Part shown: in pieces, positions 28,022-45,497 of the stretch | How the letters are laid out: each line of letters opens with the position of its first letter | How positions within the stretch are numbered: position 1 is the first letter of the stretch | The notes under the pieces: generated by a model | What the model saw: the letters and a program-made list of their open reading frames with translations, nothing else | Told to the model about the DNA's origin: nothing | Database searches by the model: none | NCBI RefSeq assembly: GCF_017874375.1 | Contig: NZ_JAGGLK010000001.1 | Span: 496,001-560,000 of the forward strand | DNA from: Methanohalophilus levihalophilus | GTDB taxonomy: Archaea; Halobacteriota; Methanosarcinia; Methanosarcinales; Methanosarcinaceae | Length of the DNA: 64,000 nucleotides | Direction of reading: 5' to 3' | Position numbers and translations under genes: made by a program

Positions 28022-30334
28022 TTAGGTTTTGGAATGTTCAACACTCTTTTTTAGAGTTTCAATTTGTTCTAAAATCTCACGTTTCAACTTTTTATTTTTA
28101 TTATAATCAAGCTCTCCATAATCTTCTGAGTTGAACTTAGTTGAAGCATTCACCAAAAAACTATAAATTTCATCTAAGCAACGCTCTGCTTCATGTGTAA
28201 CTCCAAAATTTCTGCTGGTGCTTGCTTTTACCCCAATTTCATATATTCTAAAAGCTATATCTCTTGTAATTTTGTAATTTTCATTGTTTATTGAAATTTC
28301 AGAAATTGAGCACATCGAATTCAATATTTGATTTATCTTAGAGCGAGCAAACCAAGTTAAATCAAAATCTAGTATATTTATTCCTATGTTACTTAAAGCA
28401 GAAATCGAGTAAAAAGCTTCTTTGTTTAGACCATTGAGTATAGATTTACTGCCAATTTTTTCAAGTGTCTTGATTGAGAAATTGGAATCGAGTAATGTAT
28501 CCATTTGTTCTTGATTTCTAATGTTTATTTCAGATATTTGTATTGATTTGATAATAGTTGGTAATAGGAAATAATAATCTTCTATATAGTGATCAATCAT
28601 CAATATTCCTATTTCTTCAAGAACTTTGGAAGAGCTGATTGTTGAATAAAACATGTTGGAGTCAACAGAACATTTTCTTGCAAGCTCGTTAATCGTGCCA
28701 ATTGTTTCCGAAACAACATCTGTATTTCCATCCATTAGTGCAATTATTGTGATTGAACCTAAATTTTTTATAAATGCAGAAGCTGCAGAATCTAACTTAT
28801 TATTAACTAGTGAATCGCCATATCTGTAGAAAGGATCAATCCGATGGGTTGAAGCTTTTGCATTGTCTTTTTTTAGTAGCAATTTTTCAATATCTAAAAA
28901 TGCAAATGAAATTTTTAGGCAAACATCCTCCATACGTCGGTCGGCAGACTCATTTCCTATGTGAACATAAGAAAAAGATAAAGCTTCGAGATCAAGTATT
29001 CCATTGTTAGGTTCCAATTCGTATTCATCATACATTTGCACATAATAATTGAAGAAATCTAAAACTGTCTCTACGGCTTCCTCTAGATTATTCTTTGCTG
29101 CCAGAACTCCTATTTTTTCCAATAGCGATAGTGTTAGAATATTTGTGTGAGAATTAATGCTATATACTCCGTTTTCTCCAAGCAGATTGCAAATAAGCTT
29201 TGTAACTTCTTCTGAACCCCCTTTTGCTGCTGTTATACCAATATATCCAATATCTTCAAAAAGATCGCTTAAATAAATTCTTTTTTTAAAGTCATCCAGT
29301 TGTTTATTGTCAATTATGCTCTCGGTTTTTTTCTGAAGCAAATACAAACCATATTTAGTAGTTTCAAAATCAGAATTTCTAGCAGAACTTTTTAAAATGT
29401 CTAATACAGCATGAACTGGTTTTTTTGAGGACGACAATGTGTGCTCATTTTCAGCTTTGTTTAAGATATCCTCATATGCAGATTCAATTATGTCAGGATG
29501 GTCTATTTTTTCAGAAAGTAGTCCAAGTGTCAAATAGGGATTAAATAAATCAAGTGTTCGTTTAATGTAAATATACAACGAAAAGAGACAAAAAATTCCG
29601 AGAGCATATGTGATTTGTATCTGGATTTCTATATTTTCAGCAACAACCCTATCCTATAGACTTGACGCTTCGATTTGCTTAATCACAAATAAACCAAATA
29701 TTATTGATAGCATATATGTAAATAATAATATATATAAATCAGGATTTGTCTTCCAATCTTTAAAAAATTCGATGACTCGAGTTGAATAAGTCGTTGATAA
29801 ATGTTGTATAGCTACTAAACTAAGAGTAACCACTATTGCCATTATAGCTGCTTCACTTTGTACTAAAGCACTTAGCATGTACAGTGCACTATCTGTACTC
29901 GTTAGTTCATCGGATTTTCTTGCTATTATTAAAAAAAATGTGGAAATAACCACAATTGTAACTAAATAAATTTGACATTTTTGAAGGAATGAATTGTTGT
30001 TCTTAGTTATTTTAACTTTTTTAAACAAGTCTACTGCAAATGGAAACATCAAGATTAAGATAGTAAAAAATACAGCTATACTAGTAAAAATCGAATCTGT
30101 GGACAAATTTAGACCATATGCAATAAATAAGAAAGATAAACTCATCAAAAACAAATAGATTTTCAGTACAACTAAAAAGAGATGTAATGTCGGCGATTTG
30201 ACATGTGAAATTTGAAAGAAATATGAATAAATAGATAATATTTGATCTAGAATCATTTTAACTGTGATTTCTTTAATTAAATATAAATTTATGTAAAATA
30301 GCAGTCTACTAAAAAAAGAATAAACAGGAAGCAC
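28022..30334 (-). CDS. DUF2254-like membrane protein read through an in-frame TAG
   Basis: Two open stretches (30334-29657 and 29653-28022) are in the same frame and separated only by TAG at 29654-29656. Before the TAG lie four hydrophobic segments with the family-like stretch SEAAIMAIVVTLSLVAIQHL. Directly after it comes another membrane helix (IQITYALGIFCLFSLYIYI), then about 500 residues of soluble helical protein. DUF2254 proteins have just this order, with the last helix before the soluble part, so the two stretches make one 770-residue protein. The second stretch has no good start of its own upstream of that helix. The TAG falls in the loop before the final helix. I read it as decoded UAG (pyrrolysine), with recent nonsense mutation as the alternative. 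The region is A+T-rich. Confidence 0.75.
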
Positions 30335-30371: not shown

Positions 30372-31121
30372 TTACCTAATTAAATAAACCACATACACGG
30401 ACATTGAAACAGTTGACTCCCCGGGCATGATTGGGGTAGAACTGCCGACGCCTTCGTCAAATGCGGCTTCTTCTGCGACGTCGAAGTACATCCTTGGGCT
30501 GAAGCCATCACTGATTGATGAGGACTGCACACCAACTATCCTGACGCCCAGGCTGTCGGCGAGCATCTCGGCTTTTGCGGATGCATCTGCTACTGCTTCG
30601 TCAATCAGCTCCTCACGAAGCTCTTCCTGCATCTCATCGGAAACTAAGAAGGAAACACCGCCTATCTGGTTGGCTCCGGCTGCTGCAGACCTGTCGATGA
30701 TATCGCTCAGGAGTTCAAGATCAGTGGTTGTAACCTCTACACTGTTGGAAGCGGAGTAACCCTCTACTGTGCGTACCCCATCGTAGTTGTAGATTGGATA
30801 AACAGAAACATAGGACGTCCTGATATCCTTATCCTCCAGACCAAGAGCCTCAAGCTCCTCCAGAACGGCTGTCATAATAGCTGCGTTTTCAGCGGATGCT
30901 TCTGCGGAAGTATCAGCTTCGATTACTACACCGATGTTAATTGATGCAGTATCAGGAACCACCTTTATCTCGGAGCTTCCACTCATCTCAATTGTGTTTT
31001 CTGAAACTCCCTGCACAGAAGTACCTGAACCTGCAAACAAAGCTGCAGCCATCAGTACAAGAGCTATGGACAGGGCCAATACAACGTAAAATAATTTACT
31101 ATTCGAGTTTTCTTGTGTCAT
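30372..31121 (-). CDS. SIMPL-domain (DUF541) exported protein
   Basis: A 249-aa protein with one N-terminal membrane anchor (residues 10-30) and a SIMPL domain outside (about 42-245). Family marks are SGSSEIKVVPDTASINIGV at the start, the YSASNSVEVTT strand and a late VSMSVYVVYLI. SIMPL proteins resemble BP26/OMP28, and their role is not established in archaea. GAGGTG lies six bases before the ATG. It appears to be transcribed alone, divergent from the flavodoxin. Confidence 0.9.
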   Translation of the reverse strand: MTQENSNSKLFYVVLALSIALVLMAAALFAGSGTSVQGVSENTIEMSGSSEIKVVPDTASINIGVVIEADTSAEASAENAAIMTAVLEELEALGLEDKDIRTSYVSVYPIYNYDGVRTVEGYSASNSVEVTTTDLELLSDIIDRSAAAGANQIGGVSFLVSDEMQEELREELIDEAVADASAKAEMLADSLGVRIVGVQSSSISDGFSPRMYFDVAEEAAFDEGVGSSTPIMPGESTVSMSVYVVYLIR

Positions 31122-43964: not shown

Positions 43965-45497
43965 GTGGACAATATTGGTCATGATAAAGATGGGAACTCG
44001 GCCCAAAGAGCAACAGTAAACAATGAGTTACTTTTAAGAAAAACTGCTCTTGAAAATTCTATAAGTCCAATTGTATTCCTTGATCCTGACTGGAATTTAA
44101 CTTATGCAAATAATGCTTTTCTCGAATTATGGGAATTTAATACAGAAAACGAAGTTTTGGGCAAACCCGTAACTGAATTCTAGCATGATGCGAATGAGCT
44201 ATTACATATTCAGGAAACGCTCTTGTCAATTGGTCTTTGGGCAGGAGATATTGCCTGCAGAAAAAAAAGTGGCAAAGCATTCATGATAACCCTGTCCGCA
44301 AATCTTGTTCGGGAAGACAATGGTGATCCTCTTGCAATTGTAGTTTCTTATACAGAACCACACGGCAATGATACCAAAAAGGTGGATCGGAAACTGGAAA
44401 AACTACATCAGGATTTGCTGGATTCCCTCCCACATACTGTTTTTGAAGCAAATCTGCTTGGTAAAATAACCTTTGCCAATTCTGCTGCCTACAAAATGTT
44501 TGGCTATACACCGGAAGATGTCAAAAAGGGGCTAACTATTTTTGACACTCTGGTCCCGGAAGACCATCACAGAACAAGAGAAAATATTCTTAAATTTGTC
44601 AAAGGCGAAAAAGTCCTGAACATGGAATATACAGCAAAGACAAAGACGGGTGAGACATTTCCAATGCTAATAAATATTACCTTGCTTTACCGACGAAGAA
44701 TTCCAGTCGGGATGCGAGGTACGATTGCTGATATCTCTGCCTTCAAAGAGGCCGAAAAAGAAATTATTCAGGCCAAGCTCGAAGCCGAAGCCGCTAATCG
44801 CTCAAAAAGTGAATTTCTGGCTAATATGAGCCATGAACTCCGCACACCTCTAAATTCAATAATCGGTTTTTCTGAGATTCTTCTTTTGAACAAGTTTAAC
44901 TCCCTTACTGATAAGGAATTAAAATTTACGCACAACATTGCAACCAGCGGAAAACACCTTCTTGAAATAATAAATGACATTCTTGATCTTTCAAAAGTAG
45001 AAGCCGGAAAGATGGAGTTTCTGCCAGAAGATATGGACATTCTGGATACGTTTGAAGAAATCGAAAGACTTATGCTCCCACTTTGCATAAAAAAGAATCT
45101 GGATTTGGCTTTCAATGTCGAATTTGAAGATCCAATAATAAATGCTGACAGGCTCAAATTAAAGCAGATTCTCTACAATCTGATTAGCAATTCTATTAAG
45201 TTCACACCTGAATACGGGCGTATTACCACAACTGCAAAAAAAATAGGAGATAGTTTAGAAATCGCGGTTAATGACACCGGAATCGGAATTTCTCCTGAAG
45301 CACAGGAAAAGCTCTTTTTGCCATTTGTACAAATCGATTCATCTATTAACCGTAACTATGAAGGTACGGGTCTTGGGCTAACGCTTGTTAAGCATTTTGT
45401 GGAAATGCATGGCGGAAGACTTAATGTTGAAAGCAGTGAAGGTGTTGGAACCATTTTTACTATAACATTTCCGGATCAGATGATAGACAGCCAGTAA
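43965..45497 (+). CDS. PAS-PAS histidine kinase containing an in-frame TAG
   Basis: A soluble kinase of 510 residues when read through TAG at 44181-44183 (codon 73). Codons 1-72 begin a PAS domain (SPIVFLDPDWNLTYANNAFL) and end GKPVTEF. After the TAG the frame continues HDANELLHIQETLLSIGLW, the rest of the same PAS domain, then a second PAS (about 155-275), HisKA (NMSHELRTP) and HATPase (NDTGIGI, GTGLGLT). PAS proteins often have Trp right after this GKPVTEF-type motif, so TAG may replace TGG. I read it as suppressed UAG (pyrrolysine). A nonsense mutation is the alternative. The start is GTG at 43965. Confidence 0.8.

Follow-up and report, generated by a model that had tools for sequence, protein, structure and literature searches.

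Archaea that use the genetic code known as the Pyl code read TAG as a sense codon. In MtmB, MtbB, and MttB, the pyrrolysine at an in-frame TAG is catalytic and conserved, and mtmB further carries a PYLIS. These methanogens seldom terminate translation with UAG (PMC3941956), and a reporter amber codon was read through at 20-30% in M. acetivorans (PMC2933860). Two further cases come close to the gene described here. Thg1 (tRNA-His guanylyltransferase) in Methanosarcina acetivorans has acquired a pyrrolysine that it can do without (reviewed in PMC2933860), and for an amber codon in the citrate synthase gene of Methanohalophilus mahii, translation as pyrrolysine has been proposed (PMC3017947).

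Here, we set against these systems a gene of Methanohalophilus levihalophilus for a DUF2254-like membrane protein, which lies in a stretch of 64,000 nucleotides analysed as a whole (the window) and is made up as follows:

28022-30334, minus strand: DUF2254-like gene, 226 + 543 sense codons and one in-frame TAG, terminal TAA included
29657-30334, minus strand: pre-TAG segment, with all predicted membrane helices except the last
29654-29656, minus strand: codon 227, an in-frame TAG with pyrrolysine as the predicted residue, located in the loop that joins helices 198-224 and 230-263
28022-29653, minus strand: post-TAG segment, with the last predicted membrane helix and the C-terminal helical solenoid

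Like Thg1, this gene carries its in-frame TAG in one species only, encodes a non-methylamine protein of a pyl archaeon, and apparently does not need the residue, but for Thg1 the pyrrolysine was physically observed and the activity tested, whereas the pyrrolysine of the DUF2254-like membrane protein is a predicted one. The citrate synthase gene of M. mahii comes from the same genus, is likewise interrupted by an amber codon alone, and likewise has a proposed pyrrolysine, but it is a conserved gene of central metabolism while ours is accessory and AT-rich. An in-frame TAG is also what the gene has in common with those for MtmB, MtbB, and MttB (MtmB and MttB are present in the source genome), yet their residue is conserved and the TAG site here is variable, and, in contrast to mtmB, no PYLIS-like structure was detected 3' of the TAG, where folding was weaker than in most shuffles (z = +1.12). 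At the level of the genome, TAG is rare and often intragenic as in the Pyl code, though pylB and a few other genes look like TAG stops.

Read on the minus strand from 30334 to 28022, the gene agrees with what the sequence-only reading had described, namely stretches of 226 and 543 codons in one frame with TAG alone between them. Because the other frames of 28022-30334 are rich in stops (29-63 TAA or TGA codons each, no run free of them exceeding 104 codons) and protein homology spans the TAG, this frame is not a product of chance. Translation could begin at GTG 30334 or at the in-frame ATG 30256 (codon 27), and most homologues have a shorter N-terminus than the product starting at GTG 30334. 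There is no usable start for a restart downstream of the TAG: the earliest candidate, a TTG 26 codons on, already lies within the last membrane helix, while the nearest ATG follows 207 codons on, in keeping with the earlier statement that the helix right after the TAG has no start of its own upstream.

The membrane part of the protein matches PF10011 (DUF2254) above the Pfam cut-off (34.4 bits vs 28.8, residues 120-267), but the match is partial, covering profile positions 8-153 of 368, and the solenoid half falls outside it, in which respect the protein differs from DUF2254 membrane proteins. An AlphaFold2 model built from 22 sequences, of middling quality (mean pLDDT 69.8, pTM 0.57), is all-helical, with long N-terminal helices followed by a helical solenoid, and places residue 227 in a five-residue loop (225-229) between long helices 198-224 and 230-263. 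By the charge pattern and the positive-inside rule, as opposed to a computed topology, this loop would be extracytoplasmic and the solenoid cytoplasmic. The earlier proposal of a 770-residue protein with pyrrolysine in an extracytoplasmic loop before its final helix is supported: the model puts the residue in such a loop, while the outward face and the decoding as pyrrolysine are what we infer. Comparison of sequence and fold with solved structures returned only generic helical-repeat proteins, many of them designed, and the fold matches had low TM-scores; the architecture faintly suggests that the protein may be a membrane-anchored scaffold binding a partner through its solenoid.

Homologues were found in 75 of the 186 genomes of the order, the source genome included, and the best matches in other genomes of the order reach about 30-41% identity over the matched part. 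Two of the homologues are paralogues in the source genome:

G000:C2:86963-87889: further DUF2254-like gene without TAG
G000:C2:669615-670424: further DUF2254-like gene without TAG

The sequence-only reading had called for an alignment of homologues at the TAG, and the homologues read at that point, both paralogues included, proved to be continuous single chains on both sides of it; none of those read there was split or ended at the TAG point (a natural split was what would have told against a single protein). At the TAG column itself stood various residues or a gap, within a loop of varying length and rich in indels, and the site was conserved among homologues neither as TAG nor as any single residue, so that no conserved residue was replaced. 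A homologue in genome G089 with two TAGs was considered as a parallel case and rejected, as both TAGs precede its first ATG.

The source genome (2.1 Mb, 98.8% complete; other genomes of the genus, 1.6-2.1 Mb) has the means to decode UAG. A search for pylTSBCD, proposed earlier as a check, recovered the complete set of five: tRNA-Pyl (pylT) was found, and PylS, PylB, PylC, and PylD are encoded together in one stretch. Also present are two mtmB genes with an in-frame TAG and a PYLIS, one mttB gene with an in-frame TAG, and three eRF1_2 matches, of which one is a long candidate for a release factor (424 codons, 138 bits). The pylB gene (L057:7127-8299, minus strand) has a terminal TAG followed by non-coding-like sequence, and a TAG at the end of pylB is known from other species (PMC2933860).

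TAG use was surveyed in a sample of 834 kb (39% of the genome) with a home-made gene caller and a simple codon model, whose rough starts make the following counts approximate. TAG ended 22 of 768 called genes (2.9%), whereas out of frame within long genes it accounted for ~16% of stop triplets (0.0082 vs 0.0159 for TAA and 0.0265 for TGA). About half of the 22 TAG-ending genes plainly continue past the TAG. Coding sequence directly after the stop with no start within 15 codons was seen for 6/22 TAG but only 3/742 TAA or TGA codons (p = 2e-8, a nominal value, as the pattern was tested in several ways, i.e., open extension, coding score, start codon, and domain span), and coding extensions after TAA or TGA nearly all opened with a nearby start codon, as neighbouring genes would be. 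The DUF2254-like gene is absent from the 22 because its AT-rich pre-TAG part scores negative in the codon model. Pfam or NCBIfam models spanning the TAG were MtmB, MTTB, Dam, TPD, CcmF_C, beta-helix, TSP3, and Lipocalin_4, and in a LEU3_arch gene the model reaches just past it. In the following genes the TAG lies inside the domain or repeat region:

L104:9798-10730, minus strand: Dam methylase gene
L093:7924-8853, plus strand: CcmF_C-like gene
L107:10193-10984, minus strand: TPD-family gene
L068:10300-11769, minus strand: beta-helix gene
L064:777-1970, plus strand: TSP3-repeat gene
L072:14184-14864, plus strand: lipocalin-like gene

The TPD gene and its nearest relative, in genome G007, are 76% identical before and 78% after the TAG, with dN of 0.125 and 0.133, respectively, and dS near saturation; the TAG site is TAT in that relative and Leu in five further members of the genus. 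These values are compatible with a functional product of readthrough, but a TAG of very recent origin would give the same picture. In the RuBisCO gene of a genus mate (L086, G001:C18:207417-208835), one in-frame TAG stands where the source genome has Ser. TAG thus looks like a tolerated sense codon in the source genome, as reported for Thg1 and proposed for citrate synthase, and since pylB and several other TAG genes look like genuine TAG stops, UAG is probably read both ways there, as stop and as sense.

Three further frames were noted alongside. In the window, a PAS-domain histidine kinase gene (43965-45494, plus strand) has as its sole interruption a TAG at 44181-44183 (codon 73), in a PAS-like stretch. 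A frame at L109:5443-7038 (minus strand) holds two in-frame TAGs; on visual inspection its end is similar to a tyrosine recombinase, with no Pfam match. The RuBisCO of another genus mate (G005:C2:280214-281631; L091, L092) appears as two overlapping match pieces, as if frameshifted.

We consider it likely that the DUF2254-like gene is an accessory, AT-rich gene whose UAG is at least partly decoded as pyrrolysine, giving a full-length product in which the residue is incidental. In this scheme, at least some rounds of translation would have tRNA-Pyl insert pyrrolysine at the UAG, and the product would be the full-length protein, an N-terminal membrane domain followed by the C-terminal helical solenoid. 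Drift may have brought the TAG into a loop where nearly every residue is tolerated, and its persistence may be due to the cell reading TAG as sense, with pyrrolysine presumably having no chemical task in the protein. A special role for pyrrolysine, which the sequence-only reading did not claim either, is not supported, as the site is not conserved among homologues and the genome has many other, unrelated genes with an in-frame TAG. Points that weaken the favored reading are the codon score of the first 40 post-TAG codons (1.4 bits only), the lack of a PYLIS-like structure, the TAG genes that seem to end at their TAG, and the reporter readthrough of only 20-30%.

The foremost alternative, which we regard as unlikely, is early gene decay, i.e., a nonsense mutation would recently have created the TAG in an acquired gene that the cell can spare, and any readthrough product would be useless. 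Base composition and distribution speak for this. The pre-TAG and post-TAG parts of the gene have GC contents of 0.27 and 0.31, respectively, vs 0.42 in the sampled genome, several homologues elsewhere carry stops at other places in their sequence, and the family is patchy, with very weak matches at best in the remaining seven genomes of the genus. The sets searched (genome contigs scan, genus, and order) held no close relative. Plasmid and phage records held no match to the protein, nor did the defence-system library. The gene is flanked by RuBisCO and by gene 30372-31121, which we take to be a SIMPL-domain gene, and these two are far apart in genome G003 and on separate contigs in G007, so that either the region was rearranged or the DUF2254-like gene was acquired. 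Around nine homologues (two in the source genome), the neighbours, listed without a family search, showed no obvious common partner, and these neighbourhoods consist mostly of AT-rich genes among GC-richer ones. Against decay, however, only one lesion interrupts the ~770 codons, and it is of the sole type that the cell is able to translate, whereas the codons of the gene are such that 25% of random nonsense changes should yield TAG; moreover, the post-TAG segment keeps genome-like codon use, and in-frame TAGs also occur in conserved genes of the source genome.

Less probable still is dominant termination at UAG, with the cell using the truncated 226-codon membrane part and translating little of the rest. 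UAG is both stop and sense in pyl archaea, and the 20-30% readthrough of the M. acetivorans reporter (PMC2933860) is compatible with such an outcome, but the unbroken homologues speak against a natural end at this point, and truncation would, by the predicted structure, cost the protein its last membrane helix and the solenoid. We give little credence to the TAG as a switch, by which methylamines and charged tRNA-Pyl would yield the full solenoid protein and otherwise mainly the truncated part would be made, the gene in effect reporting pyrrolysine supply. A sequencing or assembly error at 29654-29656 is the least credible account: one base could decide the TAG, but the mtmB and mttB codons, where TAG is expected, are among the in-frame TAGs found elsewhere in the genome, and the excess triplet is TAG, not TAA or TGA, a preference that random errors would not have.

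With readthrough as pyrrolysine the favored reading, the DUF2254-like gene adds one more probable pyrrolysine-bearing membrane protein. We judge as the more useful result that, in one Methanohalophilus-type genome, in-frame TAGs are dispersed among conserved genes unrelated to one another, genes that standard gene calling would cut or drop. Such TAG genes are ready targets for proteomics, which could indicate to what extent these archaea now treat UAG as an ordinary sense codon.
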